A DNA stretch of 51,795 bases from a virus. Made by a program: the position numbers and the translations under genes. The stretch lies in the IMG/VR virus record IMGVR_UViG_3300047201_000017, positions 1 through 51,795 of that record; one strand, given 5' to 3'. Shown in pieces: positions 6,064 through 50,281 of this stretch; within the stretch, counting starts at the first letter, position 1, and each line of letters starts with the position of its first letter. Under the pieces are notes generated by a model. That model saw only the letters and a program-made list of their open reading frames with translations. It was not told the DNA's origin and did no database searches.

Positions 6064-8718
6064 GTGGATCTTAGCAACATACCATTAAGTGAGACAGACA
6101 AGAAGTTTTTCAACGACTGGGCTGGTTTCTTCAACCACCAGATGACGTGGTTCTACAAGCAGTTCCTCGCTCGCCAGGAGAAGATAATCTGTCTGTTCAC
6201 CGGCAACCAAAAAGGAAAGTGTTTTTCAATAAATTCAGTAGTCTATACCCCATCTGGAATTAAGTTTGCAGAAGATATTAAAACTGGAGACTTAATTCTG
6301 GGTGGGGAAGCATTAGTTGGCGAACCATTTGAGGATGATGTCTATGAAGTAAAATTTTCAAATGGAGTAAGCATTAAATGTAATAAAGAACATCCATTTT
6401 GGTGTAAAGATTACGGAAATGTCAATGATAAAACAGCAAGGTTTATCCCATTAGAAAATCTTACTGTTGGTAAGTATGTTTTATTTTCTCCTTCTAGTAG
6501 TTTTGATTTGGAAAGTATTTCTATCCAAGGGGCAAAGTTACTTGGTTATTTATGTTCCGATGGTTATTTAGGAAATGACAAACAGTCTCCTAAGTTTACT
6601 AATGGTAATTTAGTGTTTCTAAAGGAAGTATGGAAAGAAGCAAGAGAACTTTTTCCAGAATTAAAAGTATCTTGGAGAAAAAAAGGTAATGGATATGATT
6701 TATACTTAACAGATAGAAATCACCATACAAATAATAGACTAAAAGAATATATATTGTCGTTAGGAGTATCGAAAGAAAGTTTTGGTTCTATTGTTAATGG
6801 TGATACTCATTCTTTAGAAGAGTTTATAAAGGGATACTTTAATGGTGATGGATACTTACTTCTAAGAAAAAGAAAGAACGGTTGGTCGTCTTTACCATCT
6901 GTGGAAATTGGATTTTGTATTGGTAAAAGTAAAATAAAGGCATACGAGTTACAGTATATACTTTGGAAACTTGGTATTCAATCGTGGATTATTTCTGAAC
7001 GAATGAAGTTAAGTAAGTATGATTTTTGGAGAGTAAAAGTAACAGGAATTGGATTGGAAAAACTAATATCCATTTTGGATTGGACTAAGTATCCAAGTAA
7101 ATTTAAGGATGCTATTGATACACTTAGTCATAATAGGTTTAGGAAAAACTTTGCTGGTAATTGGGTTAGGATTAAATCAATAGAAAAAGGCGGGCAAGAT
7201 TTATTTGTTCCAATAACCACAACTAATGGTGAAATATATTCATCATGTGGTTTAAAAACACATAATACTGAGGATGTGGCACATCACTATTGGATGCGAC
7301 TATGGGGCAGACACCCTATTGCAAGCAAGAATATGCGTCCCGACAATCCATATAGGATCATAAGATGCGCATCTGCGGTTTTGCCTGCTGAACCTGAAGG
7401 TGGTGAAGTTAAGAACACTCAGTATCCTGCACTTAAACGAGTAATACCTCTTGGATATATTAAGAAAGACATTACTATTCGTAAACCCGTATTAACTGTC
7501 CGTGATCCTCAAGGTGGACCCGATGTGTATTTCGAGTTTGTTTCTTACAAGCAAGAAACGGGAGACATGGCAGGTGTACAGCGGTTTTCAGTATGGCTTG
7601 ATGAGAAGAGTGACAGATCGTTCTTTGAGGAACAGATACCAAGGTTGTTCTCTGCAAGTGGAGATTTGATCTACACACTTACGCCAGCAGATTATGGTAT
7701 CGGTTGGGAACACCATGACTTGTTCAGTAGAGCAAAAACAATCATTCGCAGTGATCCAGTATTACAGCGGTACAAAGACCGGTTCAATAAGATATATCCT
7801 AATACTTATTTGAATCCAGATGGTGACTTGGATTGTTGTATACTGATGGGGGCTACCGATGACAATCCTATTTATACTCCAGAGAAGATTTCTAAGGACA
7901 TGGAGATATATACCGAGGACATTATTGACATTCGCAGGTATGGCATATCTCGCCAGGCTACGGGTCAGATCTTTGAGGACTTCGATGTAGATGTGCATCA
8001 GATAGATGGAAACCAGTACTTCGATAGAGGTATGCACTCTGAATGGGTACATGCAAGGGGTATAGATTTTCACGAACATGTACCTTGGGCATGCGGGTTT
8101 ATTGCATTATCACCGCAGAATGAGGCGTTTATCTACGATGAGTTCAATCCCTCACCAGACAAGATGGTGACGTTGCAAATATGCAGAGAATTGGCTTATA
8201 AGTCTCAGATGTTCAATTACAAGTTATCGTTAATAGATCCGTGGTCATCCAAGAAGCAACCCAATACTGGATTATCGCCATTAGATGACATTAATAGAGC
8301 GTTCTACGAGTTCAGGCGTGAAGGTATATGTTCAGGTGGCTACTGGCAGACGTGGGACACCAAATCTGCTAAGGGTAGGAATGAGATTAAGTTGCGGTTG
8401 AAGAATGCAAGGTTGTGTGGTAAACCATTCAATAATAGAATTGTAAAGAACAATGGCAAGGAGGAGTATTTACCTACATTATGGATATTCCGAAGGTGTC
8501 ATGAGACAATCAATAGTTTTAAGAATTGGCGGTGGGAACAGTGGACTAATCGTGAGATGTTAGTGTCTAAGGACGAGAAAGATAAGCCGGAACAGAAATG
8601 GAGTCATTTCCCAATGGTCTATGAAGCCATATTCAAACATCCCGGGTTTAGCATTGGCAGGTTTAGCGAACCGTTTATTAAAAGACGTGAACCATACTAT
8701 CGAAGCATGAGTGTATAA
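6064..8718 (+). CDS. terL: Terminase large subunit containing an intein
   Basis: 884 residues with a GTG start and GAGG five bases before it. Residues 53-401 are an intein (listed separately). Splicing would give a 535-residue terminase, a normal length. The joined Walker A reads GNQKGK (residues 47-52) plus Thr402. Walker B is VWLDEK (510-515). Nuclease-domain Asp residues are GIDF (D668) and LIDPW (D725). The spliced enzyme would drive ATP-dependent packaging and cut the concatemer. Because the intein splits the P-loop, the ATPase cannot work until splicing occurs. Confidence 0.95.
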   Translation: MDLSNIPLSETDKKFFNDWAGFFNHQMTWFYKQFLARQEKIICLFTGNQKGKCFSINSVVYTPSGIKFAEDIKTGDLILGGEALVGEPFEDDVYEVKFSNGVSIKCNKEHPFWCKDYGNVNDKTARFIPLENLTVGKYVLFSPSSSFDLESISIQGAKLLGYLCSDGYLGNDKQSPKFTNGNLVFLKEVWKEARELFPELKVSWRKKGNGYDLYLTDRNHHTNNRLKEYILSLGVSKESFGSIVNGDTHSLEEFIKGYFNGDGYLLLRKRKNGWSSLPSVEIGFCIGKSKIKAYELQYILWKLGIQSWIISERMKLSKYDFWRVKVTGIGLEKLISILDWTKYPSKFKDAIDTLSHNRFRKNFAGNWVRIKSIEKGGQDLFVPITTTNGEIYSSCGLKTHNTEDVAHHYWMRLWGRHPIASKNMRPDNPYRIIRCASAVLPAEPEGGEVKNTQYPALKRVIPLGYIKKDITIRKPVLTVRDPQGGPDVYFEFVSYKQETGDMAGVQRFSVWLDEKSDRSFFEEQIPRLFSASGDLIYTLTPADYGIGWEHHDLFSRAKTIIRSDPVLQRYKDRFNKIYPNTYLNPDGDLDCCILMGATDDNPIYTPEKISKDMEIYTEDIIDIRRYGISRQATGQIFEDFDVDVHQIDGNQYFDRGMHSEWVHARGIDFHEHVPWACGFIALSPQNEAFIYDEFNPSPDKMVTLQICRELAYKSQMFNYKLSLIDPWSSKKQPNTGLSPLDDINRAFYEFRREGICSGGYWQTWDTKSAKGRNEIKLRLKNARLCGKPFNNRIVKNNGKEEYLPTLWIFRRCHETINSFKNWRWEQWTNREMLVSKDEKDKPEQKWSHFPMVYEAIFKHPGFSIGRFSEPFIKRREPYYRSMSV
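6220..7266 (+). mobile_element. Intein with LAGLIDADG-type homing endonuclease, inserted in terL Walker A
   Basis: 349 residues. The first residue is Cys53, directly after GNQKGK. The last residues are THN (399-401), followed by Thr402 of the terminase as the +1 nucleophile. Splicing blocks are visible: an N-terminal block (CFSINSVVYTPSG), block B around CNKEHPFW, and block G ending LKTHN. Two LAGLIDADG-type helices, LLGYLCSDGYLG (D166) and FIKGYFNGDGYL (D262), mark an intact homing endonuclease. The segment is more AT-rich than the flanking terminase sequence, consistent with separate mobility. All key residues look intact. Confidence 0.93.
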
Positions 8719-11694: not shown

Positions 11695-12513
11695 ATGGCA
11701 GATCCTGTGGACAGCAAAGCATCTGAACAGCCGGATAAGAAGCAATCCGTTTCCGATTCTGAGATTGATGCCGCTTATCAGGACTTAATCAAAGGTGAAG
11801 GTTCCCCTGCGGAATCTGAAAAGGTCGAAACTAAAGTTGAAGGAGAAGTGAAACTAGATGTTCAACCTACTATACCTGAGGATCAAGCTGAACGGACACG
11901 CCTTGGTCGTAGAGTTAAGAAGGTTGAAGAATCTCTTGACACTATTCTTCATAAGTTAGATCAAATTGGTCAAGTACGAATGCCGAGTCAACAGCAAGTC
12001 GATACTACGGATAGTGGTGAACTTCCTGAATTTGTATCTACTCCTGCTGATGTAGAACGTGTCTTGGATGTGAGGGATCGCAAAAGACAATCGGCAATAG
12101 AATTGTATCAGACCAACTACGCTAAGGCAATTGGCAAGATGGAGAACGAGATAGAAGATCCTAAACTTGCCGAAGAGGTTATTACTGAGATATTTAGTAA
12201 CCCTCAAGCATTTAATAAGATTCTGTCTGAGAATCCATCTTTCGATGCGGAAGTCAACTTTAACAAGGCTATGGCATCGGTACTTAGGAAAAAACTGGCT
12301 GTGCCACTTAAACCTAAACCGAACGTCAAAGGCGAGACTCCAATTGCACCTACTGGTACTACAGTAGGATCTACTTCTAAGGGTGCCGTTGAGGCACCAA
12401 TAGAACTGGATGAATTTGCAAAAGAGTTTGTTAAAGCAACAGGGATGTCTCCTGAAAGTGTCAAAACTGCATTATCCGGCGAAATTCCATTAGGACTTGT
12501 TCGAGGTAAATAA
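11695..12513 (+). CDS. Scaffold-like protein
   Basis: 272 residues with a strong AAAGGAG ribosome site. The N-terminal third is acidic and low in complexity. A short coiled coil follows (RLGRRVKKVEESLDTILHK, about residues 67-86). The C-terminal part is helical and mixed in charge. Position between portal and capsid genes and this composition are typical of assembly scaffolds, although no family-specific motif is present. Confidence 0.7.
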   Translation: MADPVDSKASEQPDKKQSVSDSEIDAAYQDLIKGEGSPAESEKVETKVEGEVKLDVQPTIPEDQAERTRLGRRVKKVEESLDTILHKLDQIGQVRMPSQQQVDTTDSGELPEFVSTPADVERVLDVRDRKRQSAIELYQTNYAKAIGKMENEIEDPKLAEEVITEIFSNPQAFNKILSENPSFDAEVNFNKAMASVLRKKLAVPLKPKPNVKGETPIAPTGTTVGSTSKGAVEAPIELDEFAKEFVKATGMSPESVKTALSGEIPLGLVRGK

Positions 12514-14710: not shown

Positions 14711-15670
14711 ATGAGTATTACAAGATTTCCACATGGAGTTTCAAGTTTTGGTGTTCCCTTAGTTGGGAGTAGGTTTTCAAATCCTTGGACAACCCATTAC
14801 TTTGTGGATGGTGATAGTGGAAGTGATGGTAGTGTAGGGACTACTCCAGAAGATGCATTTAAAACCATTCAGAAAGCAATAACTATATCATCTGCTGGAG
14901 ATGTTATCTACATTCGTCCGAAGACATACACTATAGGAACTGGCTTCGCACGTTACAGCGAAGATGTATCAGTTACTCTTGGTGGTGGTGGTGGAAGTGG
15001 GGTTACTGCTACGAATGCAAACAAGTCCCTTATAGGTGTAACACAGCGCACTAGACCATCGGACTTTCTTGGTGTGCGATGGACATTTGCAACCGCAACA
15101 CAACTTACCGTTGATGCTCCCGCTCTTCATATAGAGAACATTGGTTTCTTTTCTGAACTAGGCACCTATACGATTAACCTGCGTAACAATGGAGCTACTT
15201 GGACACAACAAGGATCTGCTGGATTTTCAATCTATAACTGTGAAGTAAAAGGCGAAGCAAAACTCTATTCTGATGGTGGAGATGGCATCCAGATTGTGAA
15301 TTGCAGATTCCAGTCGAAGTATGATGGTACTACTGGTGGAATACAGTTAGTCGGTTCATCCAATCAGGTTAAAAGAGCAGTTATTCAGGCTTGTGAATTT
15401 ATTGGTGGCAACTCCTACAATATGGCTACTGCGCCAATAAACACTGCCGCTCCTTGTTGGGACCTGATAATTCGGGATTGCTACTTCAGTGTTGACACCG
15501 ATACCGTTTACATGGTGATTGCAGGAACATCCAATACCGGGATGGTAGCGAACTGCTACTTCGGTTCGGCTGATATTAATGCCCTATGTACTGGTCTTGT
15601 TGCTGGCACATCTGGTGTATTTGGTACTGCTTTGTATGACGAAGCTGGAATTGATAGTTTTGCTTCGTAA
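14711..15670 (+). CDS. Right-handed beta-helix virion protein
   Basis: 319 residues, ATAAGGAG upstream. The N-terminal part has YFVDGDSGSDGS..GTTPEDAFKTIQKAI, the signature of pectate-lyase-like/DUF1565 beta-helix proteins. Repeated short strands follow (IYNCEVKG, IQIVNCRFQS, VIQACEFIGG, IIRDCYFSV, MVANCYFGS), each about 25-30 residues apart, forming the helix rungs. Probably a decoration or tailspike-like protein. No clear catalytic acids could be assigned. Confidence 0.8.
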   Translation: MSITRFPHGVSSFGVPLVGSRFSNPWTTHYFVDGDSGSDGSVGTTPEDAFKTIQKAITISSAGDVIYIRPKTYTIGTGFARYSEDVSVTLGGGGGSGVTATNANKSLIGVTQRTRPSDFLGVRWTFATATQLTVDAPALHIENIGFFSELGTYTINLRNNGATWTQQGSAGFSIYNCEVKGEAKLYSDGGDGIQIVNCRFQSKYDGTTGGIQLVGSSNQVKRAVIQACEFIGGNSYNMATAPINTAAPCWDLIIRDCYFSVDTDTVYMVIAGTSNTGMVANCYFGSADINALCTGLVAGTSGVFGTALYDEAGIDSFAS

Positions 15671-15685
15671 CAATTTAGCAAAAAC

Positions 15686-15709
15686 AAGGGACGGGGAAAC
15701 TCGTCCCTT
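15686..15709 (+). terminator. Hairpin after the beta-helix gene
   Basis: A perfect 8-base stem AAGGGACG/CGTCCCTT around an 8-base loop, 16 bases after the stop. The following ATTTG is only weakly T-rich, so termination may be partial. Confidence 0.7.
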
Positions 15710-15729
15710 ATTTGAAAGGGAGAAGAAAA

Positions 15730-34518: not shown

Positions 34519-35658
34519 TTATTTAACCATGCAAATGACATCCTCAAAATCAATTCTTGGAGATCCTTTCTTTTCGGCTAGTCGCCTAAAGAAAGACTTT
34601 CTTTCAGTGATTATCTTCTCATCTTCTCCAAACAGATTCCCTTTTGTGCCGTGATCCTGTATCAATGAGGCTTGATGCCAACAGACAATCTTAAATCCTA
34701 CCGATTCGCATAGGGTTGCCCAACGATCGGAAAATGGAACAATTTGTTTATTATTTATATAATTTTTCGTTACCCATATCGCATGACCTCCTGGTTTCAA
34801 TAGGTCATAGCATCCCTGCACTATTTCTTTGCTTGCCTGCCAGAAGGTATCACCGGAAGTGTTGCCGAGGTTGTTTAAATCATCAGAATAACTTCCAGAT
34901 AGACCGTCAAGGCTAATATTTTTATGTTTAAGACGATCATGCTTACAGTTAGATTTTGAAAGGTCCAATCCGTGACCAGAGGATGATATCGCATTTTCAT
35001 ACGGCGGACTACTCACCACGGCATCAAATTGACCCTCCTTCATGGAACCGAGTTGTCCGGGTGATTGACCATAAGGTCTTTTTATATTTGCATAACCCTC
35101 ATCTAATTTTTTCTTCCAGGAAGGTCTGTAGTTTGGGTTATCGGGATTCCCTCGATCATTACTTGTCATGTGGGTTTGCTCTACTGGAGTTTGAGCATAA
35201 GGCGGACTTGATACAATTAACCCCGCTTCCGAGCGCCTTTTGCCCATATTTTCTGCCTTAAAAGAGTCATTCCTATTTATTTCCAATAACTTAGAAAGAG
35301 CGCCTTTTAGATTTCTTGAATCCCCCTGAATAATCCTTGCCGTCCCCAAATTCGGCCAATCCCTGAACTTGCGATTCCAAAGGTCAATGTTCTGCTGGCC
35401 TAACTTTACGAATTTAGGCTCCAACTCTATCCCGATCCAATTTAGGCCATTGATAAGGCTATGGAGGGCACCAAGGGCAACCCCCCCAAATGGATCAATT
35501 ACTGTATCTCCAGCTTTCACCCACCCCATTTTTAAGACGTGGTCATAGATTTTGCCTATTAAAGCACAAGAAAATTTGGCTGGATGGCAAAACGCCTCTG
35601 GTACTATGTTCCCTTGCCAACCGCTGGTATAACATCCATTCCAAATGTCTTTATTCAT
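34519..35658 (-). CDS. DNA methyltransferase with two SSPPY motifs
   Basis: 379 residues. The order is HPAKFSCALI (motif X region), DPFGGVALG (SAM-binding motif I), then two copies of the catalytic motif IV, SSPPYAQTP and SSPPYENA. The X-I-IV order fits an alpha/gamma arrangement of N4/N6 amino-methyltransferases. Two SPPY motifs are unusual for a single domain. It probably protects phage DNA from restriction. The 85-base structured RNA at 35677-35761 lies just upstream in its leader. Confidence 0.85.
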   Translation of the reverse strand: MNKDIWNGCYTSGWQGNIVPEAFCHPAKFSCALIGKIYDHVLKMGWVKAGDTVIDPFGGVALGALHSLINGLNWIGIELEPKFVKLGQQNIDLWNRKFRDWPNLGTARIIQGDSRNLKGALSKLLEINRNDSFKAENMGKRRSEAGLIVSSPPYAQTPVEQTHMTSNDRGNPDNPNYRPSWKKKLDEGYANIKRPYGQSPGQLGSMKEGQFDAVVSSPPYENAISSSGHGLDLSKSNCKHDRLKHKNISLDGLSGSYSDDLNNLGNTSGDTFWQASKEIVQGCYDLLKPGGHAIWVTKNYINNKQIVPFSDRWATLCESVGFKIVCWHQASLIQDHGTKGNLFGEDEKIITERKSFFRRLAEKKGSPRIDFEDVICMVK

Positions 35659-35676: not shown

Positions 35677-35761
35677 TAGCAAGCACAGAGCCTAGTTGGT
35701 AAGGAGGATGAACCAACTTTGGCTAAAGGATAGCCAGGTGGGAATTGCTCTATGCTTGCTA
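35677..35761 (-). ncRNA. Structured three-way-junction RNA in the methyltransferase leader
   Basis: On the minus strand this region folds into an outer 15-base stem (TAGCAAGCATAGAGC with GCTCTGTGCTTGCTA), in which one C-A mismatch on the plus strand becomes a G-U pair. It encloses two perfect hairpins: TGGCTA/TAGCCA with loop TCCTT, and AGTTGGT/ACCAACT with the 11-base loop TCATCCTCCTT. The loops resemble the anti-Shine-Dalgarno sequence CCTCC. The structure ends 18 bases before the methyltransferase ATG, so it may be a cis-regulator or a trans-acting RNA. No known RNA family was recognised. Confidence 0.6.
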
Positions 35762-35764
35762 TAG

Positions 35765-35938
35765 TTAATATTCATTAACTTCTCTACGTTGAACATAATT
35801 ACACTTTAAACAGTATCGTTTTTGCCAATATCTTTCATCTTTAATTGGATTTTCGTATTTGGTAAATAATTCGGTTGTATAAATATATCTTACTAAGGCA
35901 TATTCTTCCCACTTACTCCACTTATGAAATATACACAT
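35765..35938 (-). CDS. Small HKWSKW/zinc-ribbon protein
   Basis: 57 residues from ATG 35938 (AGGAGG at six bases), not the earlier ATG. Starts CIFHKWSKWEEYA and contains a CLKC pair followed by QRREV, much like the DUF1660-type gene at 30945. Probably a paralogue in the early operon. Function unknown. Confidence 0.7.
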   Translation of the reverse strand: MCIFHKWSKWEEYALVRYIYTTELFTKYENPIKDERYWQKRYCLKCNYVQRREVNEY

Positions 35939-36031
35939 TGGTTTCCTCCTATACATGCCTTGATATTATTAACTATTTTATTATGCCTAATACAATTACC
36001 CTACTTTATAATAAAGTCTTGAATTTAAGTC

Positions 36032-40628: not shown

Positions 40629-40756
40629 TTTCCTTCCAAGTATTGCCCCCATCCTATCTCACCCCTTGATGCAATCTCCGGTAATTCTTGAATTGGATGG
40701 GGACAAATCATTTATTATTCCTTTATGCGTTTGTTTTATAGCCACACTCGCTCCCG

Positions 40757-40905
40757 GCTTCACCTACCAGGTGGGTTTGGGTGATCGGGTGGACCGATTC
40801 CCTGAGCTGGGAGAACAGGAAGAGTTTCCCTGTCCGCCATGCTTCGGAGAAGCTTCCCTTGCTGGCAACACGCTACAGGATATATCGCTATCCCTATCGT
40901 AAGTA
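40757..40905 (-). other. GC-rich, hairpin-dense region in the early operon
   Basis: In about 150 bases there are at least five short perfect hairpins: CACCT/AGGTG (40761), ATCGG/CCGAT (40784), ACAGG/CCTGT (40815), GCTTC/GAAGC (40841) and GGATA/TATCC (40878). The region is markedly more GC-rich than its neighbours. A TTG-started frame from 40934 to 40764 (56 codons, Ser/Pro/Arg-rich, ribosome site GGAGG) crosses it, so a small protein is not excluded. Confidence 0.5.
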
Positions 40906-41210: not shown

Positions 41211-41356
41211 GGGTGGGCAGGTGATGTTTCAGCTTATCGCTTCTGCCATCGCTTTCCTACGGGCTGGCTACCGTCTCCCACCCTGGTAGGTTGGGCGGGG
41301 AAAAAGCCTGGAGATTTTTTTTATCAAGGAAGTCTCCAAGGGGAAAATCCCCGCCC
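41211..41356 (-). other. Structured RNA segment at the end of an early gene
   Basis: GGGTGG (41211-41216) pairs with CCACCC (41278-41283), enclosing GCAG/CTGC and ACGG/CCGT helices, and a second long-range stem GGGCGGGGA/TCCCCGCCC (41293-41301 with 41348-41356) closes an inner TGGAGA/TCTCCA helix. The region overlaps the 3' end of the gene at 41257 and may act in mRNA processing or termination. Confidence 0.45.
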
Positions 41357-41610
41357 AGTAAATTTTTCTTTGATTTAGAACTCAAAATTATATCCTTGTC
41401 CCTCACCATATGTTTAAATACCCTCGTAATATAACAATAGGCATTATTTCCATGTAGTTTTCCAGGGAAAAGTAATTTAGTAATAGCAGTAAAACTAACT
41501 TCCTCGTTTGCCCATGCCCAAACTAATTCTTTATCTTCCTGCGACGACTGATGGTATTTCATACTCATTTTAATTTCTTTTGCTTTTTCTAACAGAGTCT
41601 TTTCTGGCAT
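41257..41610 (-). CDS. Hypothetical DNA-binding-like early protein
   Basis: 117 residues with AGGAATAAG upstream. The first 80 residues are helical and compatible with a winged helix (ELVWAWANEEVSFTAITKLLFPG). The last 35 residues are Pro/Gly/Lys-rich and encoded by a GC-rich, structured segment. No family recognised. Confidence 0.6.
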   Translation of the reverse strand: MPEKTLLEKAKEIKMSMKYHQSSQEDKELVWAWANEEVSFTAITKLLFPGKLHGNNAYCYITRVFKHMVRDKDIILSSKSKKNLLGGDFPLGDFLDKKNLQAFSPPNLPGWETVASP

Positions 41611-41611
41611 C

Positions 41612-41809
41612 TTATTCCTCCTTTTTACTGTCCCATGCAGGGCATTTGTTCCAGTCTGGACATCTGTTTTGTTTTAGCCCTTGATTCTGATTAACCCCTG
41701 AAGATCCAAGGCAAAAGCTAATTTTCATTTTTGTATTGATCCTTTTTGGGCAATCAACCATTTGCTCTTTGGTTTCCTTTTCTCGTTTTGGATCTTTTTT
41801 CCGTGTCAT
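41612..41809 (-). CDS. Small Cys/Trp-containing protein
   Basis: 65 residues, GGAGGAAAGA upstream. Lys/Glu-rich N-terminus, then CPDWNKCPAW near the end, a two-Cys motif with Trp. The function is unknown; it is possibly a small adaptor. Confidence 0.6.
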   Translation of the reverse strand: MTRKKDPKREKETKEQMVDCPKRINTKMKISFCLGSSGVNQNQGLKQNRCPDWNKCPAWDSKKEE

Positions 41810-41841
41810 TCTTTCCTCCTAATTTTGAATTGCCCCCGTAC

Positions 41842-41860
41842 TAGATTCAGTTTGAATCTA
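41842..41860 (-). other. Perfect 8-base hairpin after the SSB-like gene
   Basis: TAGATTCA/TGAATCTA with a 3-base loop, in the gap between the SSB-like gene and the next early gene. No U-tract on the minus strand, so it is probably a processing or stability element rather than a terminator. Confidence 0.5.
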
Positions 41861-41923
41861 ATTTTGGATTTCCCTTCCATAAAAGAACGGATTCACCGAC
41901 GGAGGCAAAATCTATATTTCCTT

Positions 41924-42657: not shown

Positions 42658-43494
42658 TTATTTCCGGAACCCTTCTAAAATGTAGTTCCAGTCTAGTTTA
42701 ATACTTCCATGTTTCTTGATGTATCTTGTTATGGTATCCGAGGAACACCGTGCCAGGAACGAAGTGCTAGTCAAAGGATCGTCTTTGTCATCTTGGCTAA
42801 TAAAACTAATCTGCGGTAGTATAGGATTCATTCCCTCATCATACTTGAACGGCTCCTTAATATATCCAATAAAATCAAATAAGCCATGAAGATGCTGAGG
42901 ATAGATTTTGCCCTGAAGGAATGGACCGATGGTGATCCCCCCACCATACCGCTTGCCGGCATTGCTATCCTCAATACTCGTACAAATAACCAACACTTCA
43001 TATTTAGAAAACTGAGTCAGTAGTTGAGTTATCCGAACCATTAGTTCTCCTAATGATCCGTAATCCGTCTGCTCTGTTCTTGTGAAATCAATCAATCCAC
43101 GATATTTACTTATACCATCTTTGTCTTTGGTTTCCTTTAACACCTCCCTTCTGGAGTCCTGTAACTCCTTCATGACGTCCGTCTGACCAAATGTTAGATC
43201 ATCAAAGAATACCGTCTTGTACTTAAACTCTCCTTTCTTGCAGTTTTCTAATTCATCATTCAAAGTTCCTTGCAAATCCTCAAAGTCATTGGCAGATGAA
43301 TACCTAAAGTCCTCTGGTTTCCATAACGGACTTTGAGAATGGATAATACGAGGATCTTTCTGTTGGGTGTTGATAAACCATACTGGCTTTGGGCAATAGA
43401 GGCCAGACATGGTTTTGCCACATCCCGTCTTGCCATATTCTAATGCACTAAAAACCAATTCACTTCTGTCAATATTGCTTTCGTACTCGTTCAT
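42658..43494 (-). CDS. Sak4-like AAA ATPase (recombination)
   Basis: 278 residues with GGAGGATAGAATAA upstream. Walker A is GKTGCGKTM (about residues 20-28), and Walker B is KTVFFDDLT (about residues 93-101). The pattern of a RecA-like P-loop ATPase without the usual RecA DNA loops, beside an SSB-like gene, matches the Sak4 group of single-strand-annealing ATPases. It probably promotes strand annealing together with the SSB-like protein. Confidence 0.75.
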   Translation of the reverse strand: MNEYESNIDRSELVFSALEYGKTGCGKTMSGLYCPKPVWFINTQQKDPRIIHSQSPLWKPEDFRYSSANDFEDLQGTLNDELENCKKGEFKYKTVFFDDLTFGQTDVMKELQDSRREVLKETKDKDGISKYRGLIDFTRTEQTDYGSLGELMVRITQLLTQFSKYEVLVICTSIEDSNAGKRYGGGITIGPFLQGKIYPQHLHGLFDFIGYIKEPFKYDEGMNPILPQISFISQDDKDDPLTSTSFLARCSSDTITRYIKKHGSIKLDWNYILEGFRK

Positions 43495-47269: not shown

Positions 47270-47295
47270 TTTATTTAATCCTTCTTTTAATTTGG

Positions 47296-47442
47296 TTGCA
47301 CCCGCCACCACGGGTACCCTCGGATGTCGGTCTCCCTCCGACCTTGTCTCTTATTCACTCCCCGTTTAGCCGATAGGTCAGCTTTTAATTAGATAGGCGG
47401 AGGGGACGCTGGCCTTTGGTTGGCCCCGTCCCTCCGCTCCTG
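47296..47442 (-). other. GC-rich, multi-hairpin leader region
   Basis: The 176-base gap folds into a long hairpin of about 11 pairs (CGGAGGGGACG/CGTCCCTCCG with one bulge, 47398-47436) around a GGCC/GGCC helix, plus GTCGG/CCGAC (47326-47342) and ACCCG/CGGGT (47300-47315). Located directly after the stop of the gene at 47446. It may be a terminator or attenuator with a weak U-tract, followed by a structured leader for the next gene. Confidence 0.55.
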
Positions 47443-47445
47443 GGT

Positions 47446-48821: not shown

Positions 48822-48850
48822 TTTCCCTTCCTCCTTGATTTTGGTTTTGG

Positions 48851-49120
48851 TCAATAATTATTATAAATAATCAAATATGATTCCAATTTTGATAATAATT
48901 TTTGGGTATCTATTTTCCTTCCCCAATTTTCTGAAATAGAAGCGTGGTATGACATGTGATCTTCAAAGCACATTAATCTTAAATTGTCTGTATTATTATT
49001 AAAGGGATCTAAGTCTCGATGGTGAACAACAATGTTCCTCGGTAAATCAGGAATAAGTTTTTTAATTATCTTCCTTGCTTTCATTCTTGAATAGGTTTTC
49101 TTATTATTTTCTGTTGGCAT
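48851..49120 (-). CDS. HNH endonuclease
   Basis: 89 residues. HNH motif: NIVVHHRDLDPFNNNTDNLRLM...DHMSYH, with the HH, N and H catalytic/zinc residues, is the HNH-3 type of homing-like endonucleases. It is the first gene of the leftward early operon, has no visible ribosome site, and its ATG lies about nine bases after a TATACT box, so it may be translated from a leaderless mRNA. Could be a homing endonuclease or a packaging-related nicking enzyme. Confidence 0.75.
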   Translation of the reverse strand: MPTENNKKTYSRMKARKIIKKLIPDLPRNIVVHHRDLDPFNNNTDNLRLMCFEDHMSYHASISENWGRKIDTQKLLSKLESYLIIYNNY

Positions 49121-49153
49121 GGTAAAAAAGTATACTGCATGTGGTATGCCAAC
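49113..49153 (-). promoter_or_regulatory. Early leftward promoter flanked by an inverted repeat
   Basis: The perfect 8-base inverted repeat GTTGGCAT (49113-49120)/ATGCCAAC (49146-49153) surrounds a minus-strand TATACT -10 box (49129-49134). The -35 is weak, so this may be an operator-controlled promoter, for instance for the HTH regulator at 46224. Confidence 0.6.
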
Positions 49154-49312
49154 AATGCCATATTGATTTTATTGGTGTTTTTACTCCAAAGTTTACATAA
49201 TAAATGCAAGTATTTTTATACCGAGGTTGATAACTTTGGATTATATAATAATATCGTAAAGATATGTCCTAATTAAAAATAATAGGGGGGTATTAACCAA
49301 TTTAATAGGGAG

Positions 49313-49367
49313 TTATCCACAGTTTTGAGGTAAATTAGTGAAATTATTCAATTCGGGTTGTGAATAA
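49313..49367. other. DnaA box pair, left cluster
   Basis: TTATCCACA at 49313-49321 and TGTGAATAA (the reverse of TTATTCACA) at 49359-49367. Both match the DnaA consensus TTATNCACA exactly and face each other. Confidence 0.75.
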
Positions 49368-49437
49368 CTTTTTAGTATGCAAGTAATCACTTTTTGGAGT
49401 ATAAAAATAATTTGAAAAAATATTAAATCGAAGGAAA

Positions 49438-49479
49438 GGGGAAAATCGGGACGCTACCGCAAGTCAGCGATTTTTCCCC
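49438..49479. other. GC-capped hairpin in the origin region
   Basis: GGGGAAAAT pairs with ATTTTTCCCC (one extra T), with an inner CGCT/AGCG helix and a 5-base bulge. It is the only GC-rich structure in the left part of the origin and could be a terminator or a single-strand initiation site. Confidence 0.5.
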
Positions 49480-49525
49480 CCAGCAAATCAAAGGGAAAAC
49501 CATGGACAGAGAGAAACCAATAATA

Positions 49526-49711
49526 TCAATATGTTAACTGTTGTTTTTGACTTAACTATATAATATTATTAACTATCTCAGTATAACATAATACTATAGG
49601 GATTAAGGCAATTTGAGACTGTAATGATTTCAATATGTTAAGTGCCATTTTTAACCTAAGTATATGATATTATTAGATAACGCAGTATAGCATAATCGTA
49701 CAGGTGTATTA
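49526..49711. repeat. Imperfect 80-base direct repeat
   Basis: Copy one is at 49526-49605, copy two at 49630-49711. Both begin TCAATATGTTAA and share the blocks GATATTATTA or AATATTATTA, CAGTATA and CATAAT, with roughly three-quarters identity. The shared motif AATACTATAGG (49590) recurs at 50110. They could be iterons or binding sites for a phage initiator such as the AAA+ ATPase. Confidence 0.65.
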
Positions 49712-49804
49712 ACTAGCTATTGCTAATATACTATAACTATATAATATTATTATATAAAAAAAAAAAAATACAATACTAAATTCGTAGAGTAAGTTAGTAT
49801 TATT

Positions 49805-50155
49805 GTTAGTGTTTATTTGTATATATATACCTGTACTATTTTGTTATACTGGCTTATTGAATAGTTTCGTATACTTAACTCAAAAACGACCTCGAAATTA
49901 TAGGTCTATGATAGGTAGTTATAAGATATTATGCGATATTATGAGATATTATATGTTTTGCTATTTTGCACTCAATAATATCAAGGGGTTATATGGTGCT
50001 TTTGTAAGTGTTTGTTATTATTATGTATTGTATTATTGATATTATATAACGATATCATAGTGTTATACTATTTCATATTATAAAATATTGTAATTATTCA
50101 CTTTAACAAAATACTATAGGCAATAAAACTATTATATATATAAATAAACACTAAC
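49805..50155. repeat. Inverted 14-base repeat flanking an AT-rich core
   Basis: GTTAGTGTTTATTT at 49805-49818 is repeated in inverted form at 50142-50155 (AAATAAACACTAAC). Both copies are next to TATATATA tracts. The 324 bases between are extremely AT-rich. The pattern could mark a duplex-unwinding element or form a cruciform. Confidence 0.65.
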
Positions 50156-50252
50156 AATTGTCTTGCTCAAAAATAGGCTTAGCCAAACGCCTTAGGTTGA
50201 GACTTTATGACTTAGGCAATATGATTGTATCTCTAACCAATTACGATTTTAC

Positions 50253-50281
50253 TTGACATTTTAATATGCATGTAAATAATG
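50253..50281 (+). promoter_or_regulatory. Rightward promoter before the HTH/TerS-like gene
   Basis: TTGACA (50253-50258), a 17-base spacer, ATAATG (50276-50281). The start would fall at about 50287-50288, exactly at the ATG of the next gene, which has no ribosome site, suggesting a leaderless transcript. Confidence 0.6.

Follow-up and report, generated by a model that had tools for sequence, protein, structure and literature searches.

An 85-nt stretch of an uncultured tailed phage, lying between two early genes at positions 35677-35761, forms a genuine, very stable and sense-strand-biased RNA fold that matches no Rfam family. The element is very likely a true portion of messenger RNA, and its role is probably local control of the message. 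The reading preferred here, tentatively and at a little under an even chance, is that of a cis-acting intercistronic element of the polycistronic early mRNA.

Setting and fold of the element

The source is an IMG/VR virus record of 51,795 bases, analysed over its full length (the window). The plus strand carries the late genes, which extend to about 30 kb; the minus strand carries about fifty small early genes between 48.8 and 30.1 kb. The labels "early" and "late" derive from the genes present and their order. The element occupies an intercistronic gap, beginning 3 nt past the stop of a small upstream ORF and ending 18 nt ahead of the ATG of a DNA methyltransferase gene, a start codon backed by homologues. 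It had been described from the sequence as lying in the leader of the methyltransferase gene; the location just 5′ of the gene holds, but the element is intercistronic, following an ORF of 57 or 63 aa, and not a stand-alone leader. The features are as follows.

35765..35938, minus strand: upstream small ORF, 57 aa (63 aa if from 35956), with Shine-Dalgarno (SD) sequence AGGAGG at 35945-35950
35677..35761, minus strand: whole three-way-junction RNA element, 85 nt (folding, z, 500-nt context, shuffles)
35747..35761, minus strand: closing stem (15 bp), 5′ arm UAGCAAGCAUAGAGC (folding and pair probabilities)
35737..35746, minus strand: junction strand AAUUCCCACC, 10 nt, unpaired, C-rich (folding, pair probabilities)
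35720..35736, minus strand: hairpin 1, 6 bp, with the 5-nt loop UCCUU at 35726-35730 (folding)
35694..35718, minus strand: hairpin 2, 7 bp, with the 11-nt loop UCAUCCUCCUU at 35701-35711, containing the anti-SD-like CCUCCUU
35677..35691, minus strand: closing stem, 3′ arm GCUCUGUGCUUGCUA, the sole U-G pair being 35752/35686
34519..35658, minus strand: downstream N6_N4 DNA methyltransferase, 379 aa (Pfam E 1e-11)
41830..41908, minus strand: second intercistronic element, three-way-junction-like, with a 10-bp closing stem containing U-G pairs and two inner arms

From 5′ to 3′ on the minus strand, the element reads UAGCAAGCAUAGAGC-AAUUCCCACC-UGGCUA(UCCUU)UAGCCA-A-AGUUGGU(UCAUCCUCCUU)ACCAACU-AG-GCUCUGUGCUUGCUA. 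A single A separates the two hairpins, and AG lies between hairpin 2 and the 3′ half of the closing stem. No G occurs in the three main unpaired stretches, which are C-rich. Refolding reproduced to the base the 15-base outer stem of the preliminary description, fully paired with one G-U on the minus strand only, as well as its two perfect inner hairpins, of 6 and 7 bp in the minus-strand fold.

The minimum free energy of the minus strand is -39.9 kcal/mol (z -8.23), and none of 200 shuffles was equally stable. The plus strand folds less well (-33.8 kcal/mol, z -3.97), because the U-G pair turns into a C-A mismatch there. The z values and this asymmetry of the G-U pair between strands bear out the idea, also put forward previously, of a sense-strand structure at the RNA level. 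When the element was folded within 500 nt of mRNA, all three helices had pair probabilities of about 0.97-1.0, the closing pairs 0.81-0.93, and the loops remained unpaired. The record was screened in 90-nt windows on both strands, which were ranked by GC-adjusted folding energy; among the 30 best, for which z was computed, the element was the most extreme of the 51.8-kb record (z -8.3), the runner-up reaching -6.7. Of 200 dinucleotide shuffles of the entire record, 10 contained paired arms of 15 bp or longer, separated by 35-90 nt and with one G-U at the most; none did once an energy of -39 kcal/mol or lower was also required. Given its strength, its rarity among shuffles and its persistence in context, the fold is therefore considered real and, for the record as a whole, not due to chance.

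A scan for sigma-70-type sites found no promoter-like or terminator-like site flanking the element, as expected if it is part of a longer mRNA. The ARAGORN model of tRNA and tmRNA was not matched. The possibility of a leader peptide was dismissed, as the only frame, of 22 codons, starts with TTG, has no SD sequence and is not credible.

Several other features of the record were noted in passing. An 884-aa terminase-like ORF (6064-8718, plus strand) contains an apparent in-frame intein that starts with CFSINSVVYTPSG, ends near ...GLKTHN/T and has two LAGLIDADG-like motifs; relatives align on both sides of it, as judged by eye and from tblastn coordinates. Strong folds (z about -6, both strands) occur at 12337-12426 and 15625-15714, inside structural genes or where they end. 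A palindrome of 66-70 nt at 41290-41359 (TTGGGCGGGGA...TCCCCGCCCA), within the 3′ end of ORF 41257-41610, has the look of a palindromic insertion in a gene. Where the early operon begins, a long AT-rich stretch without clear genes (48822-50265) contains many TATAAT- or TAATATTATATA-like repeats and may be an origin or promoter region.

Searches for related RNAs and methyltransferases

The element matched none of the 4227 families of Rfam 15 at the gathering threshold, a comparison that the preliminary description had called for; the best match at E ≤ 10 (9.9) was a chance match to a snoRNA, on the plus strand. Only chance matches were returned by blastn against phages and plasmids. A single-sequence covariance model (R1), run on 417 kb comprising the window and related loci and on 21 virus records, recovered only the element and its own plus strand. 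Exact-pattern scans of viral contigs gave 17 stretches for loop 2, none with a similar fold, and no stretch for the stem arms. All three C-rich motifs were present in 21 stretches of viral contigs and four of genome contigs, again without a similar fold. Scans with the protein encoded at 42658-43494 and with the ERCC4 nuclease found nothing, and the relatives found with the portal protein (44-45%) have neither the methyltransferase nor the element. No homologue having been found, neither covariation nor conservation speaks for any function of the element, and the lack of close relatives carries little weight, as the searched sets may omit records very near the window.

Relatives of the methyltransferase are present in viral contigs, with 30-53% identity across most of the protein, along with fragments. 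Counting the near-identical L046 and L047 once, 14 homologues in viral contigs had readable upstream DNA, and no comparable structure precedes any of them. The best relative (G008/L058) has a partly syntenic early operon, with 53% identity for the methyltransferase and 63% for the ERCC4 nuclease, and also shares proteins 32869, 41924, 42658 and 45231 with the record; the element is absent from it despite this partial synteny. No relative was found in GTDB genomes. The element thus shows no tie to the methyltransferase family, contrary to the link first proposed, and a conserved leader or autoregulatory element of the methyltransferase was rejected on the same count.

Two other structures were encountered in sequences that carry such homologues. 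In L051, a plain, perfect hairpin of some 16 bp (GGGAGGGAGGGGAACG...CGTTCCCCTCCCTCCC), unlike the element of the window, lies just 5′ of the methyltransferase homologue. Phage G001, the methyltransferase of which is 47% identical to that of the record, has a 109-nt intergenic element (L037, 5445-5553) bounded by perfect inverted repeats of 16 bp (TTATGACGGCCAATGG).

Pairing of the RNA with the SD sequence of the methyltransferase, its suggested target in cis, is not supported either, since this gene, in contrast to most early genes, has no strong SD sequence and its computed duplex amounts to -5.5 kcal/mol, against a mean of -10.1 kcal/mol for early genes. The predicted accessibility of the methyltransferase start site is 0.48 with the element and 0.55 without it; control of access to the start site was discarded in view of this small effect.

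Possible roles of the element

As a cis-acting intercistronic element, the folded block would insulate the two cistrons and serve as a site of mRNA processing or a block to decay. The 15-bp stem could stack on the 7-bp hairpin to give about 22 bp, and might be a substrate for RNase III or another RNase specific for double strands, or halt exonucleases. The methyltransferase cistron would then have its stability and output set separately from those of the upstream cistron. The unpaired stretches, C-rich and free of G, would hold the fold open instead of being aimed at a target, and about 18 nt before the methyltransferase ATG would be left free for the ribosome. Stabilising intercistronic structures and RNase III sites are familiar features of the mRNAs of phages T7, T3 and lambda. 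The computed fold does place a sense-strand helix between cistrons, as in an RNase III processing site, whereas cleavage at this helix, processing and stabilisation are presumed.

A role in cis is preferred over one of the loops in trans mainly because sense-strand structures recur about 20 nt before the next start. The second element (41830-41908) sits 20 nt ahead of the ATG of gene 41612-41809, and folds with -32.8 kcal/mol (z -5.4) on the minus strand and -24.2 kcal/mol (z -4.1) on the plus strand, its U-G pairs working on the mRNA strand only. Its loops do not resemble the anti-SD sequence, and in sequence it bears no relation to the element at 35677-35761. This argument draws on two cases, and the second element could be a coincidence. 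A third structured gap is found at 47270-47445 on the minus strand (176 nt, -62.6 kcal/mol, z -3.2); it is GC-rich in an AT-rich genome, contains several hairpins and has no Rfam match.

The loops suggest another use. Cut from the early mRNA or within it, the element might pair its C/U-rich loops with the SD sequences of early or host genes and lower their translation, after the model of NfeR1 and sX13 in bacteria; this is judged unlikely. The resemblance to the 16S anti-SD sequence that had been pointed out is upheld, CCUCCUU being wholly unpaired in loop 2 and available at no folding cost, and the record is indeed rich in AAGGAGG (29 occurrences for 6.6 expected, about 4-fold enriched). The 26 unpaired nucleotides comprise 12 C and no G, against 14.6% C and 21.9% G for the surrounding region, although the binomial P values of about 1e-4 and 2e-3 are flattering, as the loops were spotted first and tested afterwards. 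Duplexes of loop 2 with 51 early start regions have a mean energy of -10.1 kcal/mol, compared with -10.3 kcal/mol for the 16S tail, and the two sets of energies are correlated (r = 0.75). The loops could thus compete for nearly any strong early start, and no particular target is indicated: pairing is unspecific, with 26 of the 51 starts at or below -10 kcal/mol, but poor at the neighbouring methyltransferase start (-5.5 kcal/mol), which has no strong SD. Loop 1 (UCCUU) is short, the sigma-70-type scan gave the element no promoter or terminator of its own, and the pattern scans of viral and genome contigs revealed no conservation of the loops. The specific proposal of a phage-encoded anti-SD RNA, closed by a three-way junction within the early operon, which would titrate or repress the strongly SD-driven early genes or host mRNAs as the phage counterpart of bacterial C-rich-loop sRNAs, is accordingly given a rather low probability.

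There is also a rather small chance that the fold is stable without having a selected function, for instance as a decayed palindromic insertion tolerated between genes and clear of the ribosome. The element is single-copy, missing from the syntenic relative and unrelated in sequence to the second element, and the record contains further palindromes (41290-41359, 40751-40813). Yet the combination of two perfect inner hairpins, a near-perfect outer stem and G-U pairing confined to one strand is hard to account for without selection on RNA, and neither a target-site duplication nor a further copy was seen. Action at the DNA level, as a cruciform or folded single strand used by a recombinase or in replication or packaging, is very unlikely: single-stranded DNA of the element folds well (-21.3 kcal/mol, z -6.5), and T-shaped folded DNA is in use elsewhere, in attC sites and viral terminal repeats, but the G-U pair favours RNA, the element is single-copy and internal to an operon, and no recombinase gene was recognised beside it among the families scanned.

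Two hairpins one nucleotide apart on the sense strand of an early operon also evoke an antiterminator RNA of the put type, which would modify the polymerase and carry transcription through the early operon of about 20 kb. The put RNAs of phage HK022, of about 70 nt, consist of two stem-loops and act without proteins (PMC9378689). They are located near early promoters, however, and have no 15-bp closing stem, whereas the element is far down the operon; a relation in sequence, checked in Rfam only, gave no match, and this reading is highly unlikely. Finally, an antisense RNA from the plus strand, the hairpins of which display AAGGA and AAGGAGGAUG, could act through its GGA loops (AAGGA, AAGGAGGAUGA) as a sponge for CsrA/RsmA, GGA-type hairpin sites being of the kind bound by CsrA. 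This is extremely unlikely, considering the weaker plus-strand fold with its mismatch in the outer stem and the lack of a good plus-strand promoter close upstream.

Comparison with known systems

The structured RNAs of uncultured phage operons are largely uncharted, and the element is a clean case, being the strongest fold of its record and without a family. Should it work as a site of processing or insulation, such phages would part early cistrons by RNA structure, for which the second element in the same operon provides a test. If the loops are the working part, it would be a phage RNA aimed at the most general signal of translation initiation.

RNase III targets RNAs of phages T7, T3 and lambda and, in E. 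coli, commonly has sites between genes (PMC5371410). The element resembles the RNase III or stabilising intercistronic sites of these phages in that a strong structure on the sense strand separates cistrons of an early operon; it differs in being a predicted fold, with a 15-bp stem that is shorter than typical full substrates. With the put RNAs of HK022, it has in common a compact two-hairpin structured RNA in phage early transcripts (PMC9378689).

The previous statement that no RNA of this form has been described is too strong, since multi-hairpin RNAs with anti-SD or C-rich loops are known; the three-way junction closed by 15 bp in a phage operon does lie outside all Rfam families. NfeR1/alpha-r14 (SmelA075) are sRNAs of Rhizobiales that carry CCUCCUCCC, an anti-SD motif, in three hairpins (PMC10746234, PMC3927594), and sX13 of Xanthomonas has three C-rich loops (PMC3771888). 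Like the element in its computed duplexes, C-rich-loop sRNAs offer accessible C-rich loops complementary to G-rich start regions. As in alpha-r14/NfeR1, several hairpins of the element show an anti-SD motif unpaired, on stems free to vary. The latter act in trans as independent, conserved sRNAs and contain three copies of an identical motif, whereas the element has one full and one short motif, a 15-bp closing stem, a place inside a phage operon and no homologues found. It was not assigned to this group, as CCUCCUCCC is not in every hairpin, the loops being UCCUU and UCAUCCUCCUU. Since NfeR1/alpha-r14 and sX13 use such chemistry, a possible working mode is nevertheless known. The element also shares with sX13 and S. 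aureus RNAIII stable stems with apical C-rich loops able to pair with G-rich starts (PMC3771888), but those RNAs are separate transcripts with demonstrated targets, other loop sequences and no closing three-way junction.
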